Origin: Lachnospiraceae bacterium NK4A144
Lineage (GTDB): Bacteria > Bacillota > Clostridia > Lachnospirales > Lachnospiraceae
Direction of reading: 5' to 3'
Assembly: GCA_000424365.1 (NCBI GenBank)
Contig: AUJT01000004.1
Span: 1-33,361, forward strand
DNA length: 33,361 nucleotides
In this document: positions 19,022 through 26,657 of the stretch, piece after piece
Position numbering within the stretch: the first letter of the stretch is position 1
How the letters are laid out: each line of letters starts with the position of its first letter
The notes under the pieces: model-generated
What the model saw: only the letters and a program-made list of their open reading frames with translations
The model's database searches: none
Told to the model about the DNA's origin: nothing
Position numbers and translations under genes: made by a program

Positions 19022-19942
19022 TCAATTCTGATGCTTCAGATGCTCTGCAACTACAGATGCGAGAGCGATGGAATTAACCTTTGTCTCAACAGAGTCTGAA
19101 CGGCTTGTAAGGATAGCAGGTGCCTTTGTTCCTGTAAGGATGCAGCCATTCTTAAATTCTGTAGTATGAACGATAAACTTATATGCGATATTTCCGGCAT
19201 GAATATCAGGGAACAGAAGGATATCAGCATCGCCTACGATCTTTCTGTCTGTTGCTCCCTTGTGCTTTGCAGCCTCAGGGAAGATAGCAAGATCTGCGGA
19301 AAGAGGTCCGTCTACGATACAGCCCTTGATCTTTCCTTCTTCATTCATCTTTGTAAGCTCAGCTGCCTCAACAGTTACCGGCATCTTCGGATTCACTACC
19401 TCAACTGCTGCAAGAGGAGCAACCTTCGGATTTTCGATACCGCAGGCATTACATACATCAACTGTGTTCTCGATGATATGAACCTTGTCCTCAAGTGTCG
19501 GGTATGTCATGAATGCAACGTCTGTAAGGAACAGAAGCTGCTCAACGCCCTTGATCTCAAATACGCATACATGAGAAAGTGTCTTACCTGTACGAAGACC
19601 AACCTCCTTATCAAGAATGCTCTTAAGGAAATCTTTACTCTGGATAAGTCCCTTCATGTACATATCAGCTTCGCCGTCGTGTACGAGCTTTACTGCTGTA
19701 TGTGCAGCCTGAATGGGATCCTTCTCATCGATGATCTCATAATCATCCATATTCATGCCAAGTCTTGCGCCGATCTCTCTGATCTTATCAGCATCGCCTA
19801 CAAGAACTGCGTTTGCTATTCCGTCTTCACGTGCCTTTTTTACTGCCTCAAGAACGTTCTCATCCTCTGCTGCTGCTACAGACAGCTTCTTCATGGGAAT
19901 CGCTTTTACCTGTGCGATGATGTCATCAAAATGCTTGCTCAT
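19022..19942 (-). CDS. ptb: Phosphate butyryltransferase
   Basis: Exchanges CoA for phosphate on butyryl-CoA to give butyryl-phosphate. The 306-residue protein has the PTA/PTB fold pattern: an N-terminal AAAEDENVLEAVKKAREDGIANAVLVG, DMYMKGLIQSKDFLKSIL (about 92-109), GCIVDGPLSADLAI and ADILLFPDIHAGNIAYK (about 241-257). Pairing with buk decides for Ptb over phosphate acetyltransferase. An AGGAGG site lies 11 nt before the ATG, slightly long. Transcribed from its own strong promoter with Rex-like boxes. Confidence 0.95.
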   Translation of the reverse strand: MSKHFDDIIAQVKAIPMKKLSVAAAEDENVLEAVKKAREDGIANAVLVGDADKIREIGARLGMNMDDYEIIDEKDPIQAAHTAVKLVHDGEADMYMKGLIQSKDFLKSILDKEVGLRTGKTLSHVCVFEIKGVEQLLFLTDVAFMTYPTLEDKVHIIENTVDVCNACGIENPKVAPLAAVEVVNPKMPVTVEAAELTKMNEEGKIKGCIVDGPLSADLAIFPEAAKHKGATDRKIVGDADILLFPDIHAGNIAYKFIVHTTEFKNGCILTGTKAPAILTSRSDSVETKVNSIALASVVAEHLKHQN

Positions 19943-20002
19943 CTCTATCAGATCCTCCTCTGAATCGAATCATTTGTGATATGCGTTTTAGAAAAACGCC
20001 CA

Positions 20003-20020
20003 TTGTTAAAAAAATATCAC
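20003..20020. promoter_or_regulatory. Rex-like operator, distal half-matched box (ptb)
   Basis: TTGTTAAAAAAATATCAC: left half TTGTTAA is perfect for the clostridial Rex consensus TTGTTAA-N4-TTAACAA and the right half matches 4 of 7. It covers the ptb -10 and lies one base from a second, better box. Prediction only. Confidence 0.4.
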
Positions 20021-20039
20021 ATTGTTAATTCATTGTCAA
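20011..20039 (-). promoter_or_regulatory. Promoter of ptb-buk
   Basis: Minus-strand perfect -35 TTGACA (20034-20039), 17-nt spacer, TATTTT (20011-20016). Predicted start near 20004, leader about 60 nt. Confidence 0.75.
20022..20039. promoter_or_regulatory. Rex-like operator over the ptb -35
   Basis: TTGTTAATTCATTGTCAA matches TTGTTAA-N4-TTAACAA at 12 of 14 defined positions. It covers the -35 hexamer, so a bound repressor would block RNA polymerase. Rex is the NADH/NAD+-sensing repressor of fermentative and butyrate genes in clostridia (established); the site itself is inferred. Confidence 0.5.
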
Positions 20040-20062
20040 GGTCGAGTATTCCTGCAAAGCCG

Positions 20063-21925
20063 TTATTTGCTTAGTCTTACCTCTATATCTTCAGTGATCG
20101 GAGTGTCTTTTGTGATCTCTTCTCCGGTATCCTGTCGTACCCAGTGTGTTCCCTCTTTCGCTCCATGCGGCAAAGTCGGGAGAGCTGTAAGTGTCTCACC
20201 TTTTATCACACCTATGTACGGATTTCTTTCTTCTCCGTCTCCTACAAAATGAGCTACAACTATTTCTGCATCCTCAAGCCAGATCTCATCGCAAAACGCC
20301 ATGCGATCTTTTAGAAAATTCCGGACTTCTTCTGTATCCTCTGCGATGGACTCCGGATTATCATGCCATCTGAAACCATCCATGTCGTTATTTGATGCGG
20401 TTATCGCTGTGAGTTCATCCAATTTGCCATCAAGAAGGCTCTGCACATAAGGCCTGACTTTTTCCTTATACTCCTTTTTAACGAGAGAACGGAATTCATC
20501 ATTTTTCATGTACAGATCATAAAAAAGCATAGTCTGCTGCTTATGATTTGTGTTGAAGGTTATTGTACGTACGGCATCCACCGTATCGTTCTGACCGTTA
20601 AGAAGAGTTTTGTCGTAATCCCATGCCGGTCCTGCAAAAATATGTGCATCAACCGAGTCAGCATCCTTATAGAAAAAGGAACTGGTTGAGCCGGAAGCCT
20701 CATTTTTTACAAATTCTTCCAGCACATATTTATCAGCAAAACTCTGCATGTCGATAAGATCAGATATCGTACTGTCACCTGCTGACGCCATATCTTCCAT
20801 TTTTTGAAAAAGACCGGCTATATACTGAACTTCTGTCTTTGACGCATATGCAGGACTTCTGACAACGTATCGCTCTCCGCTCTCTGTCTTAAATCTGGAG
20901 GGTCTGGAGGAATATCTGTCCACATAGTTTCTCTCGATCAAGTATCCGCCGGTATAATCTGCCGGTGTATTGTCGAGGTCCGCAAACGCTATTTCACTTT
21001 CTCCTGCGCCTTCTACTTCCGTGGTCTCATAGGTTGCCGGGTCTTTAAGATTAACTCTGCGATTTTTGTCTTCGAGATCAGTGATATTGAGACGTGCATC
21101 ATCTATCTCAACCTTTTCAGAAAGCTGATACATGCCTGCATACTCACCGTTGAAATAGACATCTGTCATTACCGAGTCTGTTGTACCTCTGAGCCCCTCA
21201 GCCTCCGCCATGCCATTTACGATCATATTTCGGACTTTTGAAACATCCAGAAGATTTGCAATGAGTAACCAGCTTCTTGCCTTTGTCATCCCGAGAAGCG
21301 GACTTGATCTGTGAACCTTTATCTGATATGGACGCTTTTCCAGGCGCCAGGATGTATTTCCATGACCGTGGATCATATCCAGAGCTCCGGTGAAATCCAC
21401 TGTCCCATCAGCAGTAAATATGGTCATCTCACCTTTTTCAGTGTTTTTCTTGGAGAGATTCAAATGGTCCATACTGCCTGTTTCTGTATAAATAAATGCT
21501 GCCGGCAAGTTTTCAGACTGCATATAAACTATCTTTCCATCAGCCAGTACATTTCCGCTTCCTGATACAAAGCGGACCAGATATGTCTCATCTCTGTTTA
21601 AGCCTGTAAGATAGCCTCCGTTCGAGATATTTTGCAGATTCCCGTTTATATCCTCTATTTCAAGGTGATCCGCACCACTGAAATGAACCGGTGACTCTGA
21701 CAGCTCCGCACATGACGGCATGAAAAAATACCATGCATCAGAAGCATGATTTTCATCATAATATGCCTTTATGACAGACCCGCTTCCGTGACCGTTAAGC
21801 TCGATCGACAATGTTTGAAAATATCCTATGTCCTGCAATTCATCTGCATGCTTCCAAATGATCAGGATAAGAGGGATAAACGCTGCGAGAAACAGCAGTA
21901 TTATCCCCGTGCGTCTGCGGTTCAT
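20063..21925 (-). CDS. CotH-like kinase-family protein B, membrane-anchored
   Basis: A 620-residue member of the CotH family, atypical protein-kinase-fold proteins first known from Bacillus spore coat. An RRR start and one helix at 7-24 predict an outward-facing anchored protein. Residues 35-180 form a beta-rich region, then the CotH core: HGHGNTSWRLEKRPYQIKV (186-204), LSEKVE (268-273), GYLIERNY (327-334), VKNEASG (406-412) and GPAWDYD (432-438). The position where CotH kinases carry a catalytic Asp (N-x-D) appears to be Ala here. Starts with an ATGA overlap on the DUF4956 gene. Paralogue of the first gene of the operon. Confidence 0.85.
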   Translation of the reverse strand: MNRRRTGIILLFLAAFIPLILIIWKHADELQDIGYFQTLSIELNGHGSGSVIKAYYDENHASDAWYFFMPSCAELSESPVHFSGADHLEIEDINGNLQNISNGGYLTGLNRDETYLVRFVSGSGNVLADGKIVYMQSENLPAAFIYTETGSMDHLNLSKKNTEKGEMTIFTADGTVDFTGALDMIHGHGNTSWRLEKRPYQIKVHRSSPLLGMTKARSWLLIANLLDVSKVRNMIVNGMAEAEGLRGTTDSVMTDVYFNGEYAGMYQLSEKVEIDDARLNITDLEDKNRRVNLKDPATYETTEVEGAGESEIAFADLDNTPADYTGGYLIERNYVDRYSSRPSRFKTESGERYVVRSPAYASKTEVQYIAGLFQKMEDMASAGDSTISDLIDMQSFADKYVLEEFVKNEASGSTSSFFYKDADSVDAHIFAGPAWDYDKTLLNGQNDTVDAVRTITFNTNHKQQTMLFYDLYMKNDEFRSLVKKEYKEKVRPYVQSLLDGKLDELTAITASNNDMDGFRWHDNPESIAEDTEEVRNFLKDRMAFCDEIWLEDAEIVVAHFVGDGEERNPYIGVIKGETLTALPTLPHGAKEGTHWVRQDTGEEITKDTPITEDIEVRLSK

Positions 21926-22599
21926 AATGTCACTTCTCCGTCATGCTGCAGAACTGATGATGAATATACGCCTTCTACTCCTGCAACAGCCTTTGCAAGT
22001 GCTTTTTCATCCTTTGTACGGACTTCATAAACTACATCTGTTCCGGATGCAGTAATATTTCTGGACTTTACTTTTGAAAAAGCTGCGTTGTTATTTATCG
22101 CGTTTTCAAGAGCGATCTCTGTTTCATCAGAGTTTGCCATATTTACAACAAGGATCATCGGAGCTTTTCCTACCGGAATAAACTCAAGAACAACGATCAT
22201 CAGTGTGATCACCAAAGATGATATGATCGCTACTTCAGTCATTCCTGCTCCACACATGATACCGATACTTATCGACCAAAACATAAATGCGAGATCCATC
22301 GGTTCCTTAACCGCTGTACGGAAACGAACGATAGAAAGCGCACCTACCATACCAAGTGATACTACAAGGCTGGACTGTATCGTAAGGATTATCGCTGCTG
22401 TGATAACTGCAACTGCTGATAAAGATATGTTGAAATTTTTGGAGTAAAAAGTCTTTCTGGTAACTGCTCTATATACAAAGAAAATGTATAAAGATATGAT
22501 ACATGTCACTGCAAGTGCAATTATTATCTGTGTTGTTCCGATGTCCTGTCCTGAGAAACCCTGTAAAAATGAGTGTTTAAAAATGTCTCCGAATTTCAT
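21922..22599 (-). CDS. DUF4956 membrane protein
   Basis: A 225-residue protein with four or five membrane helices at about 24-44, 57-77, 79-91, 102-120 and 123-142 and a cytoplasmic C-terminal domain of about 80 residues. The segment GALSIVRFRTAVKEP (86-100) is the hallmark of DUF4956. The family is often found next to VTC-domain polyphosphate polymerases and CotH genes. By analogy with eukaryotic VTC, where the polymerase feeds a membrane subunit, it may be the channel for the polymer (inference). AAGAAAGG precedes the ATG. Stop overlaps the CotH B start by 4 nt. Confidence 0.85.
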   Translation of the reverse strand: MKFGDIFKHSFLQGFSGQDIGTTQIIIALAVTCIISLYIFFVYRAVTRKTFYSKNFNISLSAVAVITAAIILTIQSSLVVSLGMVGALSIVRFRTAVKEPMDLAFMFWSISIGIMCGAGMTEVAIISSLVITLMIVVLEFIPVGKAPMILVVNMANSDETEIALENAINNNAAFSKVKSRNITASGTDVVYEVRTKDEKALAKAVAGVEGVYSSSVLQHDGEVTL

Positions 22600-22649
22600 G
22601 TTGTGCCTTTCTTGTGCTTATGTCATATTTCTAAGAATTGTCATCTGTC

Positions 22650-23411
22650 TTAGACAGCGTCGTTTAACGCATCCATCTCTCGCCGGGAATTCAGGGAATA
22701 CCTTCTGCAAAAATAGTACTTGGAAAATGAAGTGTACCTAAGCGTATTATTTTGTATAACGCTTTTGATGCTGTCCGGGAGAAAGCCGTCATACTTTACT
22801 TCCAACAGCGACTGTCCTACCGGTAGTACCGGCCGCACCGGAAGTTTTTCAGAAAAAAAGTCTTCAAATCTTTCCGATGATGAGATCTTTCTGTCAAAGG
22901 TGATCCTCACATTTCCAAGCGTGTATATGAACGGAAGCCTCTCGTACTGAACTATAACCTTTGGCTTCAATCCATCTGTCAGCCTTAAAAGCAATACTCT
23001 GCGAAGAAGTGGTTTTGTTTCCTTATCTGTTATCTTTTCCGCAGCACCTTTTCCTGTCATCAGAATGTCGTATTCCTCAAGTGTGATGCGTTCCGAGAGT
23101 TTCTTTGTCATGCCGTTCTCTTTTATCTTGCACTCCAAAGATATAAAAGACTTATCACAGTTATACGCTCTTATCCTGAATTTGTGCCTCGGATCAACCC
23201 CATCTTCATTAGAATCAAAATAATGATCATCTATGTCATCAAAATATATACTTCTAATGAGATATGTTCCGTCCGGTCTCGTATGACTGTCTTTCCGTAA
23301 AATACCTGAAAACCTTGCCTGTAGTATTCTCATTGACGCATCTGTGCCAAAGTATTTTAGTTCATGACGCCAGCCGTGGTCATCGGGATTTCTGCAATTG
23401 TTCCAGAACAT
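22650..23411 (-). CDS. VTC-domain (polyphosphate polymerase) protein
   Basis: A 253-residue soluble protein of the CYTH/TTM superfamily, VTC type. Eukaryotic Vtc4 makes polyphosphate from ATP in such a beta-tunnel. Residues fitting the tunnel are present: HELKY (16-20), R53, R79 and R81 (RIR), E93/K95/K97, R158 (YER), R169 (RITFD), E204/K206 (LEVK) and K231/Y232. I chose the ATG at 23411 (GGAGG 11 nt upstream) over an in-frame TTG at 23429 that lies on the ribosome site itself. There is no membrane segment, so it probably partners the DUF4956 protein encoded 50 nt downstream. Enzymatic activity has to be tested; other TTM reactions are possible. Confidence 0.85.
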   Translation of the reverse strand: MFWNNCRNPDDHGWRHELKYFGTDASMRILQARFSGILRKDSHTRPDGTYLIRSIYFDDIDDHYFDSNEDGVDPRHKFRIRAYNCDKSFISLECKIKENGMTKKLSERITLEEYDILMTGKGAAEKITDKETKPLLRRVLLLRLTDGLKPKVIVQYERLPFIYTLGNVRITFDRKISSSERFEDFFSEKLPVRPVLPVGQSLLEVKYDGFLPDSIKSVIQNNTLRYTSFSKYYFCRRYSLNSRREMDALNDAV

Positions 23412-23433
23412 TCCGGTATCATCCTCCAATTAC

Positions 23434-25311
23434 TTATTTTTTAACCAGAACCATATCCTTGTTGATCACTGTTTTTTCATCAACAATCTCTCCGGTTTCC
23501 TTATCCTTCCAAATCGTTGGATCATCAGCCTTGCCAAAATTCGGCATATTCGATATGGTCTCGCCTGCCGAGACTCCTATATACTGATTCTTGTCCTGAT
23601 CCGGTATCTCAAACTGAACTATACATAAAGTGCCTTCCGATAACCACACTTTATCAAGAAAGGCTATGCGACGGGTGAGAAAATCACGTATAGTATCAAC
23701 GTCTTTTTCCTCTGCGCCGCATTCCAGTCCCCAACGATAAGAATTCATATCATCATCGTTTTCTACCGCCTCGAAATAATCTTTAAGCCCTCCGTTTAAG
23801 AGACTTTCAACATAGGGGCGTATTTCTTCTTTATAGAACCTTTTTGCTTCTTCACGGAAGCTCTCATGATTCTTCCAGAGTTCATAAAAAATATAAGTAT
23901 TCTCTGAGTGATTGGTGCAGAAATCCAAAGTTTCCGGATCATTCAGTGATGGGTAAAAGGTGTTTCCCATGGTCTGGTCATAGTCCCATATAGGGCCTGC
24001 ATATACCAATGAATCAATGCTGTCAGAATCCTTATAAAAGTACGAACTTGTTACACCGGCGCCTTCATTTTTCAAAAATTCTTCAAAGACATATTTGTCA
24101 GCAAAGCTCTTCATATCTATGAGATCCGACATATCTTCTCCGGAATAAGCTCTGTCCTCGATCTCCTGAAAGATATCCGCTATATAACCGACCTCACTCA
24201 CAGATCCGTATGCAGGGCTTCTAAGTACATATTTTTCACCACGCTTTGTGGTGAATTTTGTTGCCTCTGCCGCATACTTTGGACCGTAATCATGCTCGAT
24301 AAGATATCCTCCGGTTATATCTTCGGGCTGAACTTCGAGTTTCACTCCCACCTGCTCTGAACCATTTTCGCCTGTGGTTGTTACTTTTTCTGCCGATTCT
24401 GCAGGTATCCGGTTCATTTTGTCATTTTCAGATTCGAGATCTGTTACATTTACACGGTTACGTCCGATCTCTGCCTTTTCGACAAATTGATAAAGACCTC
24501 TATATTCTCCATTTATATAGACTTCCGCATATCTTAACTCCGGTGAATATCCCGGCATGATCGAATCCGCCATATCGTATGCAACTGAATTACGCATAAG
24601 TGACGCATCAAGAGCATTTGCAAGCATTATCCATTTTTTTGCAGCGTTCAATCCAAGGATCGAGCTTTCTTTATGCAACGTTATCTGGTACGGACGCTTA
24701 TCCTGAAGCCATGTAGAATTTCCATGACCTCTCAGACTGTCGAATCTTCCGCTGTAATTCAATTCTCCGTCAGCTTCGATTATTTTCAGCTTTCCGCCCT
24801 CGGAATTACCCTTTTCAGCATGAATGTGATCCAGCGAACCACTTGCTGTAGTGATGTATGCAGCAGCGATATCTTTACTTTTCTTGAATATCAGATTGCC
24901 CTTTTCGCGGACTTCTCCGTTTTTATCACAAAATGCGACGGTATACTGCTCATCGATAGTGATCTCAGGCAGTTTGTCACCACTGCTTATCTTTTTTTCT
25001 GTACCATCAGCATTTGTAAGAACTATGTGATCCCTGTTTTCGAATGTTACGGATATACCATCATTATCTGCAAAAGACGGCAAAAAAGCATAGTATTCCG
25101 TCGGTGTGACACGGATATCTCCAAAGCACTTCACAGATCCTGTCTGGCCATGCCCCGATGCATAAAATACGAGGTGGTCAAACACTGTTCCTTCTGATAC
25201 AGATGCTCTGTAATCTGCAAATTTTAATCCTGCCAGTATCGTGAAAAAAGCCGCTAAAAAGATCAGCAGCCCTAATATCAAAATATTTTCTTTTTTTCTT
25301 AAAATACGCAT
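23434..25311 (-). CDS. CotH-like kinase-family protein A, membrane-anchored
   Basis: A 625-residue CotH-family protein, first gene of the cassette. RKK then a helix at 10-29 predicts an N-terminal anchor and an outside domain. A beta-rich region (about 45-185) precedes the core: RGHGNSTWLQDKRPYQI (194-210), FVEKAE (276-281), GYLIEHDY (335-342), LKNEGAG (413-419), GPIWDYD (439-445). The usual catalytic Asp after KN-x is Gly. The C-terminal stretch after about residue 560 resembles the matching end of CotH B. The ATG lacks any ribosome site and coincides with the predicted transcription start. Clearly homologous to CotH B throughout, so the pair arose by duplication. Confidence 0.85.
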   Translation of the reverse strand: MRILRKKENILILGLLIFLAAFFTILAGLKFADYRASVSEGTVFDHLVFYASGHGQTGSVKCFGDIRVTPTEYYAFLPSFADNDGISVTFENRDHIVLTNADGTEKKISSGDKLPEITIDEQYTVAFCDKNGEVREKGNLIFKKSKDIAAAYITTASGSLDHIHAEKGNSEGGKLKIIEADGELNYSGRFDSLRGHGNSTWLQDKRPYQITLHKESSILGLNAAKKWIMLANALDASLMRNSVAYDMADSIMPGYSPELRYAEVYINGEYRGLYQFVEKAEIGRNRVNVTDLESENDKMNRIPAESAEKVTTTGENGSEQVGVKLEVQPEDITGGYLIEHDYGPKYAAEATKFTTKRGEKYVLRSPAYGSVSEVGYIADIFQEIEDRAYSGEDMSDLIDMKSFADKYVFEEFLKNEGAGVTSSYFYKDSDSIDSLVYAGPIWDYDQTMGNTFYPSLNDPETLDFCTNHSENTYIFYELWKNHESFREEAKRFYKEEIRPYVESLLNGGLKDYFEAVENDDDMNSYRWGLECGAEEKDVDTIRDFLTRRIAFLDKVWLSEGTLCIVQFEIPDQDKNQYIGVSAGETISNMPNFGKADDPTIWKDKETGEIVDEKTVINKDMVLVKK

Positions 25312-25317
25312 GGTGAA

Positions 25318-25326
25318 ATTATAACA
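25318..25326 (-). promoter_or_regulatory. Extended -10 promoter of the CotH-VTC cassette (leaderless)
   Basis: Minus strand TG-T-TATAAT: extended -10 with a perfect TATAAT at 25318-25323. Counting +1 seven bases beyond gives 25311, the A of the CotH A start codon. No -35 match (TGTCTC). The upstream etfA terminator isolates it from the butyrate operon. Confidence 0.6.
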
Positions 25327-25330
25327 CGCA

Positions 25331-25367
25331 AAAGAAAAAAGAGACAGGCACTTTCGTGCCTGCCTCT
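25331..25367 (-). terminator. Terminator of the butyrate operon (after etfA)
   Basis: Minus strand: AGAGGCAGGCAC, GAAA tetraloop, GTGCCTGTCTCT, followed by TTTTTTCTTTT. A 12-bp stem with one G-U pair. Confidence 0.92.
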
Positions 25368-25406
25368 GCGTATGGACATTAATATTTATTAAGGTTATGG
25401 CTTAAA

Positions 25407-26471
25407 TTAAGCGTTTGCCTTTGCTTCCTGCTCAGCCTTGATCTTCTTTGTGAGCTCAGGAACGATCTTGTTGAGATCGCCTACGATACCGTAGTCAGCA
25501 ACTTCGAAGATCGGAGCATTCTCATCCTTGTTGATAGCGATGATGATGTCAGACTCTTCCATACCAGCTACGTGCTGGATAGCTCCGGAAATACCGATTG
25601 CGAAGTATACGTGAGGACGTACAGTCTTACCTGTCTGACCTACCTGCATATCCTTAGGCATCCAGCCAGAATCAACAACTGCACGAGAGCAGGAAACCAT
25701 ACCGCCCTTGAAGAGAGCAGCGAGGTCCTTAAGCATATCGAAGTTCTCCGGTGAGCCAACTCCACGTCCGCCGGATACAAGAACCTTAGCGTCCATGATG
25801 TTTGCTACGTTAGAAACTTCCTTAACTACCTTCTCGATAGTTACATACTTGTCGTTAGGAGTGAAGCCAGGATTGTAGTTAACAACCTCAGCCTTTGCAC
25901 CCTTCTTCGGCTCGATCTTCTGCATAACACCAGGACGAACTGTTGCCATCTGCGGACGATAATCCGGGCAAGCGATAGTTGCGATAGTGTTACCACCGAA
26001 AGCAGGACGAGTCATGAGGAGCTGCTTATGCTTCTGCTCATCTTCCTTACCCGGTACTGCTACGAGCGGGAAATCACCGATCTCAAGTACTGTACAGTCA
26101 GCTGTAAGACCTGTGTGAACACGAGCGGATACTCTCGGGCCAAGGTCGCGGCCGATTGCTGTAGCACCTACGAGCATGATCTCAGGCTTGTACTCGTTGA
26201 TTGCAGATGCAAGTGCATGTGCGTAAGGCTCAGTTCTGTACTCCTTAAGCTCAGGATCGTCAATAACGATTACTCTGTCTGCACCGTACTCAGCGAGCTC
26301 ATCTACGAGTCCGCCAACTTCGGAACCGATAAGAACTGCTGTTACAGTCTTGTCGTCAAGGTTCTCAGCGAGGTCACGTGCCTTACCAAGAAGCTCCAAT
26401 GCGATGCTGGATACTTCATTATCTACCTGCTGAGCGAAAATAAATACGCCCTTATATTCTTCTAATCCCAT
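25407..26471 (-). CDS. etfA: Electron transfer flavoprotein alpha subunit
   Basis: EtfA forms the FAD-containing heterodimer with EtfB that, with butyryl-CoA dehydrogenase, carries out NADH-dependent, ferredoxin-coupled (bifurcating) crotonyl-CoA reduction in butyrate producers. The 354-residue protein has the C-terminal FAD-binding signature SGGRGVGSPENF, VGQTGKTVRPHVYFAIGISG and INKDENAPIF. I start at the ATG at 26471, with GGAGG 7 nt upstream; the longer frame runs into a repeat. Last gene of the operon, 200 nt after etfB. Confidence 0.96.
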   Translation of the reverse strand: MGLEEYKGVFIFAQQVDNEVSSIALELLGKARDLAENLDDKTVTAVLIGSEVGGLVDELAEYGADRVIVIDDPELKEYRTEPYAHALASAINEYKPEIMLVGATAIGRDLGPRVSARVHTGLTADCTVLEIGDFPLVAVPGKEDEQKHKQLLMTRPAFGGNTIATIACPDYRPQMATVRPGVMQKIEPKKGAKAEVVNYNPGFTPNDKYVTIEKVVKEVSNVANIMDAKVLVSGGRGVGSPENFDMLKDLAALFKGGMVSCSRAVVDSGWMPKDMQVGQTGKTVRPHVYFAIGISGAIQHVAGMEESDIIIAINKDENAPIFEVADYGIVGDLNKIVPELTKKIKAEQEAKANA

Positions 26472-26523
26472 TTTAGTCCTCCAGGAAATTGCTTGCTTAA
26501 CATTTACTTTTTCATAATACCAC

Positions 26524-26657
26524 GGATTACTTCGCACCTATGGTGCTCTCGTAATCCTAAACCACTCACATTCCGCGCTATTGCGCTGTATGTTCGTGGT
26601 TTGCGGGTTCCAAAGGTCAAACCCGCATTGCGCAAGCGCATACGGTTTTGCACTTTT
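26524..26657. repeat. Hairpin array in the etfB-etfA gap
   Basis: Four or five successive hairpins: GGATTAC/GTAATCC enclosing GCACC-tat-GGTGC (26524-26557); AACCAC/GTGGTT enclosing ACAT/ATGT and GCGC/GCGC (26560-26601); GCGGGTT/AACCCGC (26603-26626); TGCG-CAAG-CGCA (about 26629-26640); GGTT/AACC (about 26644-26662). No open frame. Transcribed between the two ETF subunits. Confidence 0.7.

Follow-up and report, generated by a model that had tools for sequence, protein, structure and literature searches.

Accessory genes of the type cotH-PPP-DUF4956(-DUF4832) are known in Gram-positive pel operons, in which they were described in 2020 and 2025 (PMC7112168, PMC12345266). Individual components have described counterparts in the yeast VTC complex, the CotH kinase of B. 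subtilis and B. cereus, the MgtC/SapB family, and the NELoc-2 locus of C. perfringens. Here we analyze a cassette of four genes that lies on the minus strand (25311-20063) of a 33,361-nucleotide stretch of DNA from Lachnospiraceae bacterium NK4A144 (contig AUJT01000004.1), hereafter called the window. Open reading frames and Pfam matches reveal the gene order CotH, VTC, DUF4956, CotH. The cassette represents a membrane module that is widespread: across the genomes sampled, VTC and DUF4956 are almost invariably encoded together.

The window resembles the pel accessory genes in that CotH, VTC, and DUF4956 are found in one run, and two pel loci (L097 and L116) have the identical CotH-VTC-DUF4956-CotH order. 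However, the cassette is not adjacent to pelDEADAFG but is flanked by etfA and ptb, and both of its CotH proteins lack the equivalent of B. subtilis D228, which is missing only from the second CotH of L097 and L116. The same genome contains a separate pel-type operon (L186 3-6815; C1:356003-362815) that is followed directly by its own CotH-VTC-DUF4956 run. The PelF of this operon scores above the NCBIfam cut-off, PelG- and PelA-type proteins were recognized with profiles of the L097 kind, and the places of pelD and pelE were assigned by clustering only. Farther downstream (L186 16238-19000) lie three genes that resemble type I CRISPR-Cas components. According to the 2025 study, the three-gene synteny was not found outside the Pel locus in its analyses (PMC12345266). 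This remark is contradicted and needs correction, because 43 of 47 CotH-bearing VTC loci, the window included, lack both PelG and PelA within the sequence retrieved around them (about 8 kb on each side where the contig allows). The settings of VTC genes include pel loci, HEAT/GT2 clusters, and plasmid polysaccharide clusters; on a Pseudobutyrivibrio plasmid, for example, CotH-VTC-DUF4956 lies amid polysaccharide genes.

NELoc-2 of C. perfringens contains a VTC gene, a neighbor of 222-226 amino acids named tubulin/FtsZ, and CotH, followed by genes for a 685-amino acid protein, a HEAT protein, and a GT2 protein (PMC2879425). Five loci in our set (L083, L091, L096, L107, and L112) have VTC, DUF4956, and CotH together with genes of like order, size, and domain, a likeness judged by description rather than by sequence. 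Judging from size (222 and 226 amino acids) and place beside VTC, the two genes named tubulin/FtsZ GTPase in NELoc-2 (PMC2879425) probably encode DUF4956 proteins. NELoc-2 differs from the window in its glycosyltransferase setting and single CotH.

Co-occurrence was determined in 245 genomes of the window's class; the statistics are uncorrected for kinship, and gene-level counts refer to the best 150 matches listed for each of VTC, DUF4956, and CotH. VTC was present in 127 genomes, DUF4956 in 124, and both in 122, yet DUF4956 is rarely named in the literature we searched. Among the 150 VTC genes listed, 142 have a DUF4956 gene within 1 kb on the same strand, with VTC first in 141; the eight VTC genes that have no listed DUF4956 gene nearby include several at contig ends. 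CotH occurs in 94 of the 245 genomes, 88 of which also contain VTC. A VTC gene is found no more than 5 kb away, and always on the same strand, for 65 of 152 CotH places (150 listed and two from the window's genome). Of 14 named control genomes, three gave matches to VTC and these three also to DUF4956: Bacteroides ihuae, Corynebacterium glutamicum, and Methanosarcina acetivorans. The genome under study encodes three VTC proteins, each gene adjoining one for DUF4956. No VTC-DUF4956 fusion was noticed among the listed open frames, and no further search for one was made. Clusters of response regulators (21 genes) and histidine kinases (18 genes) recur in VTC-DUF4956 runs (e.g., L062, L072, L086, L104, and L110); a response regulator/kinase pair that was scanned scored below the PhoB/PhoR cut-offs.

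The two proteins also evolve together. Tree distances of VTC and DUF4956 are correlated at 0.91 over 92 pairs, compared with at most 0.08 in 200 permutations. Because shared species descent could give such a correlation, we used a within-genome test on 27 loci of 12 genomes that have more than one pair; the correlation was 0.91 for true partners vs -0.02 when partners were rotated within the genome. Thus, co-evolution of VTC and DUF4956, as read from their trees, is pair-specific, as expected of proteins that touch each other or hand over a product. An initial annotation of this DNA had described the four minus-strand genes as tightly linked, with a 4-nt overlap and short gaps, and had cast DUF4956 as the membrane partner of VTC. 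The arrangement is confirmed by the open reading frames and Pfam, the recurrence of the genes as a unit is borne out across the class, and the partnership is near-obligate.

The VTC domain protein (23411-22650, minus strand; 253 amino acids from the ATG) has a Pfam score of 115.4 bits (cut-off 23). A profile of 28 VTC proteins matches yeast Vtc4 at 7e-22. Seven window residues (K25, R85, R87, K101, K110, R164, and R175), each invariant in all 28 proteins, align with Vtc4 K200, R264, R266, K281, K294, R361, and R373, respectively. Numbering of Vtc4 took into account that chain 5iiq is offset by three and that 8i6v_E, the 721-residue Vtc4 chain, starts three lower. K200, K281, K294, R361, and R373 are presumably tunnel-lining residues. 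The triple substitution R264A/R266A/E426N impairs Vtc4 (PMC9911596). An AlphaFold2 model of the window protein (pLDDT 92.1) has Vtc chains as its 13 best matches in the PDB, with Vtc4 first (TMq 0.54-0.67); triphosphatases are among the weaker fold matches. The locus resembles the yeast VTC complex in this tunnel-enzyme fold, in the mapped residues, and in the placement of a polymerase beside a membrane part. It differs in that the window protein lacks an SPX domain in the Pfam scan and that the membrane part is a separate protein matching MgtC, not Vtc chains. The Vtc4-type fold and mapped residues agree with the VTC-type polymerase domain originally annotated, and the protein is a probable polyphosphate-making enzyme. 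The literature that was searched yielded no report in which a bacterial VTC protein had been assayed. A role for VTC as a replacement for the polyphosphate kinase PPK1 is unsupported, PPK1 being present in 50 of 127 VTC genomes vs 32 of 118 others. The genome of the window also encodes PPK1, and VTC is therefore not its sole candidate polyphosphate synthase.

DUF4956 (22599-21922, minus strand; 225 amino acids; Pfam 45.9 bits, cut-off 30.6) was modeled with a pLDDT of 84.6. The model reveals a short first helix followed by five helices in the hydrophobic region and a C-terminal domain of beta-alpha-beta-beta-alpha-beta order. In a structure search this domain matches ACT domains, with other ferredoxin-like domains also among the 50 matches listed; the ACT-like signal was weak in one further comparison. 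The DUF4956-type orthologue of S. intermedius is predicted to cross the membrane four times and to have an ACT domain inside the cell, and its assignment to MgtC plus ACT is already published (PMC12345266). Our profile comparisons agree. Alignment of DUF4956 with a profile of six MgtC proteins by hhalign gave a probability of 97.2 and an E-value of 4.6e-11 over 199 columns, whereas the controls (ten column shuffles, a reversed alignment, VTC, and six other families) gave a probability of at most 1.7. The Pfam MgtC model (PF02308) scores the window protein at 16.6 bits (E 0.01), below its cut-off of 31.4, and matches seven of 28 DUF4956 relatives at E up to 0.1, the best at 1.8e-5. A search for MgtC picked a DUF4956 protein (L203) at 4.5e-6. 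These profile matches make DUF4956, with its ACT-like domain, a remote relative of MgtC. The homology to MgtC/SapB spans the membrane helices and the C-terminal ACT-like domain; unlike that family, DUF4956 falls below the Pfam cut-off and is genetically tied to VTC. A basic pair is found in all 92 DUF4956 proteins compared, with Arg or Lys at the position of R92 and Arg at that of R94.

The two CotH proteins, CotH-A (25311-23434, minus strand; 625 amino acids) and CotH-B (21925-20063, minus strand; 620 amino acids), score 110.6 and 89.4 bits with the Pfam CotH model (cut-off 23.8), and both have an N-terminal anchor or signal segment. A search of PDB sequences with CotH-A as a single protein returned only chance matches; a profile of 24 CotH proteins matches the solved CotH 5jd9 at E 4.7e-40. 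NCBIfam scans gave no family name for any of the four cassette proteins. By a measure of N-terminal hydrophobicity, an export or anchor segment is present in all 47 VTC-linked CotH proteins, in none of 100 VTC proteins, and in 374 of 950 other open reading frames, consistent with the initial placement of CotH outside the cell. The segment does not distinguish linked from unlinked CotH (47/47 vs 39/47); among the eight low scorers of the unlinked group, five appear to have late or missing starts and two appear to have weak signal peptides.

The window proteins belong to the family of the B. subtilis/B. cereus CotH kinase (5jd9, Spore coat protein H), and both retain the equivalent of D251. They differ from it in their export segment, gene setting, and lack of the D228 equivalent, which is Gly in CotH-A and Ala in CotH-B in the alignment with 5jd9 (the D228/D251 correspondence being set by the 23-residue spacing in 5jd9). 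The D228-equivalent Asp is kept in 89 of 94 CotH proteins (43/47 VTC-linked and 46/47 unlinked), and the D251-equivalent Asp in 47/47 VTC-linked proteins; the four linked proteins without the D228 equivalent are CotH-A, CotH-B, and the second CotH of pel loci L097 and L116. B. subtilis CotH is inactive when it carries D228Q (PMC7821199). The CotH that precedes VTC has Gly within the motif KNxGAGxTSS in nine congeneric genomes, and the CotH-B position is Ala in the three congeners in which it could be read; three further congeners have CotH proteins of 22-29% identity that keep the Asp. CotH-A and CotH-B are maintained proteins under purifying selection, since ratios of nonsynonymous to synonymous substitution relative to locus L196 are 0.058 and 0.040, respectively. 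They are probably not kinases, as judged by residue loss, and this loss under strong constraint leads us to read them as binding or scaffold proteins. Hence, at this locus, attachment of the product to surface proteins by CotH, as suggested in the initial annotation, is unsupported, and so is phosphorylation by CotH. The genome contains five more CotH genes (L187 15813-17657, L189, L190, L191, and L192) more than 5 kb from VTC, and all five proteins have both Asp equivalents.

CotH is one of two families that accompany VTC-DUF4956. We drew 100 VTC loci at random from 147 and added three from the genome itself; VTC was recovered by the open reading frame picker in 97 of the 100 and in the added three, giving 100 VTC genes. 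Within 5 kb on the same strand, 47 of these have CotH and 24 have a member of a second cluster, assigned to Cthe_2159 from one scanned member of 25. Every one of the 25 Cthe_2159-cluster proteins has a hydrophobic segment at its N terminus. At least nine swaps between CotH and Cthe_2159 were counted on the VTC tree, a quick tree in which 32 of 89 inner branches are weak. At the genome level, CotH or Cthe_2159 (PF14262) is present in 123 of 127 genomes with VTC vs 13 of 118 genomes without it. Neither family occurs in four VTC genomes, which include two of 61-62% completeness and one whose sole VTC match is weak. The control genomes agree: among those with VTC, B. ihuae has Cthe_2159 and C. glutamicum and M. 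acetivorans have CotH, whereas B. subtilis, with CotH, is the sole VTC-free genome of eleven to have either partner. CotH and Cthe_2159 thus look like alternative outside partners of VTC-DUF4956. The near-universal presence of one or the other in VTC genomes is new here. In the accessible literature searched, no paper was found that joins Cthe_2159 to VTC. CotH and Cthe_2159 are named together for anaerobic rumen fungi, in which both domains are present (PMC6712302). Cthe_2159 proteins, described as sugar-binding beta-helices, bind cellulose and polygalacturonic acid, a polyanion (PMC6712302). Their alternation with CotH offers a direct route to asking what VTC-DUF4956 sends out.

We tentatively favor, at slightly less than even chances, a model in which VTC and DUF4956 form a polymerase-translocase pair that would make polyphosphate and export it to surface proteins. 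The pairing of VTC with DUF4956, the likeness to Vtc4, and the exported partners fit this model. VTC would polymerize phosphate from ATP in the cytoplasm. DUF4956 would dock VTC and pass the nascent anionic chain across the membrane, perhaps by way of its basic R92/R94 pair, and its ACT-like domain may be a ligand sensor that gates activity. The product would then be bound or acted upon by the outside partner, either on the cell surface or within the exopolysaccharide matrix, a role that CotH-A and CotH-B of this lineage would fill as binding or scaffold proteins rather than as kinases.

A broader version of the model, rather unlikely, is a system of bacterial and archaeal polyphosphate secretion in which a Vtc4-type polymerase feeds an MgtC-fold DUF4956 protein and an interchangeable receptor, either CotH (a kinase, or a pseudokinase as here) or Cthe_2159, fixes polyphosphate at the surface, for example as an anionic cross-linker of a partly deacetylated exopolysaccharide like Pel. 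Partial deacetylation of Pel has been reported (PMC7112168); that polyphosphate may act as its counter-polymer is our own idea. If VTC-DUF4956 exports polyphosphate, many bacteria would have an overlooked surface polymer and exported CotH proteins would gain a context; MgtC-fold proteins would become candidate conduits for phosphate polymers.

Several observations weigh against polyphosphate synthesis and export. Neither CotH nor Cthe_2159 lies within 5 kb in 29 of the 100 VTC loci, and six of 94 CotH genomes lack VTC; in G021 and G124, the two of these six that were examined, CotH has an export segment and both Asp. Single-protein searches of PDB sequences found no relative of VTC or DUF4956, the structure search with DUF4956 gave no solved relative of its membrane part among the 50 matches listed, and MgtC is not known to be a polymer channel. 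In the bacterial VTC family, E23 is invariant where Vtc4 has Thr198, so the chemistry may differ from that of Vtc4. E210 is likewise invariant in 28/28 proteins, and its equivalence to E426 is by position only, outside the printed Vtc4 alignment. Genetic data from S. intermedius speak against a strict three-part machine: aggregation decreased when the DUF4956-type and CotH genes were deleted, and no such drop is reported for the polymerase gene. Pel was still made by every mutant, all four extra genes being dispensable for it (PMC12345266). The deletions are compatible with DUF4956-type and CotH genes that act at the surface but show no need for the polymerase under those conditions.

An alternative that we consider unlikely is that VTC-DUF4956 is a cytosolic sensor-regulator of phosphate or ATP and no exporter. 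VTC would make or remove short phosphate chains, the ACT-like domain would read a ligand, and the pair would tune exopolysaccharide or envelope synthesis, much like the action of MgtC on ATP synthase and phosphate uptake. The ACT-like domain and MgtC homology of DUF4956 are consistent with such a role, as is the recurrence of response regulator and kinase genes in runs with VTC-DUF4956. MgtC inhibits ATP synthase and targets PhoR, and the amount of Pel in S. intermedius rises in the DUF4956-type deletion and falls in the CotH deletion (PMC12345266). A regulator of this kind, however, leaves unexplained why 123 of 127 VTC genomes encode CotH or Cthe_2159.

The invariant E23, which is presumably reminiscent of hydrolytic tunnel enzymes, raises an improbable second alternative: VTC would be a tunnel-fold phosphotransferase or triphosphatase that makes no polyphosphate and feeds phosphate modification of an exopolysaccharide or lipid carrier. 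The association of VTC with polysaccharide clusters and the weaker fold matches to triphosphatases point in the same direction, but Vtc4 is closest by both sequence and fold, and the mapped residues are kept. It is about as improbable that exported polyphosphate, or another VTC product, is the phosphoryl donor for extracytoplasmic CotH kinases, there being no ATP outside. VTC is present in 88 of 94 CotH genomes, and linked CotH proteins nearly always combine an export segment (47/47) with the D228 and D251 equivalents (43/47 and 47/47). Nevertheless, both window proteins lack the D228 equivalent, G021 and G124 have exported CotH with both Asp but no VTC, and Cthe_2159, described as a sugar-binding beta-helix (PMC6712302), occupies the same place. 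That the genes have a spore-coat role or are accidental neighbors can be dismissed, given conservation of the unit across the class, the export segments of linked CotH, a spore-coat case that extends no further than the CotH name, and, in line with the initial annotation, the finding of no coat protein besides the two CotH among ten window proteins scanned with Pfam and NCBIfam.

Within the cassette, CotH-A is separated from the VTC ATG by 22 nt and VTC from DUF4956 by 50 nt, and DUF4956 and CotH-B overlap by 4 nt. The VTC open reading frame extends to a TTG start at 23429; the ATG at 23411 is probably the start, because it is preceded by GGAGG. The flanking genes, assigned by Pfam and NCBIfam, are etfA upstream and ptb and buk downstream. 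Between etfA and CotH-A lies a terminator-like hairpin of 12 pairs (25367-25340, minus strand), and a promoter-like site, TTGACA-17-TATTTT, precedes ptb (20039-20011, minus strand). Seven terminator-like sites were observed vs 3.5 expected and 11 promoter-like sites vs 13.5 expected; promoter-like sites therefore count as evidence only where they are conserved. The etfA-CotH gap of L196 and L205 keeps, by eye, a hairpin whose bases differ yet still pair. An extended -10, TGTTATAAT (25318-25326, minus strand), read by eye and absent from the matches of the promoter-like site scan, lies 6 nt 5' of the CotH-A start codon. The same sequence or TGATATAAT is found in L194, L195, L196, and L205, with TGATATAAT in L196 and L205. 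Its closeness to the start codon raises the possibility that the cassette is transcribed from a promoter of its own into a leaderless or near-leaderless messenger RNA. No ribosome-binding site was seen between the extended -10 and the CotH-A start.

Terminator-like and promoter-like sites flank the cassette on either side, which makes it look like a transcription unit separate from the butyrate genes; a functional link to them is unsupported, and the tie is positional. The initial annotation had suggested that this position may be accidental. Transcriptional separation agrees with that view; the place itself, however, is shared, since the cassette lies beside etfA and/or ptb in at least nine of 41 genomes of the genus, its own included (16 loci fetched). 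VTC is present in 41/41 of these genomes. In four congeners (G292, G254, G248, and G267), the etfA/ptb-side cassette has only one CotH. A recent insertion had been considered from a count by eye of VTC within 5 kb of ptb in five of 31 genomes with a close ptb orthologue, and was dropped because further congeners share the etfA side. Synonymous divergence from L196 over 19022-26537 is 0.64-1.13 for CotH-A, VTC, and CotH-B, compared with 0.25 for DUF4956, 0.10 for etfA, and 0.31 for ptb; the contrast between cassette and flanks may stem from codon bias in the flanking genes or from an exchange of the cassette. In L195 (5129-5798), which comes from a metagenome-assembled genome, DUF4956 is split into two open reading frames by a frameshift or an assembly error.

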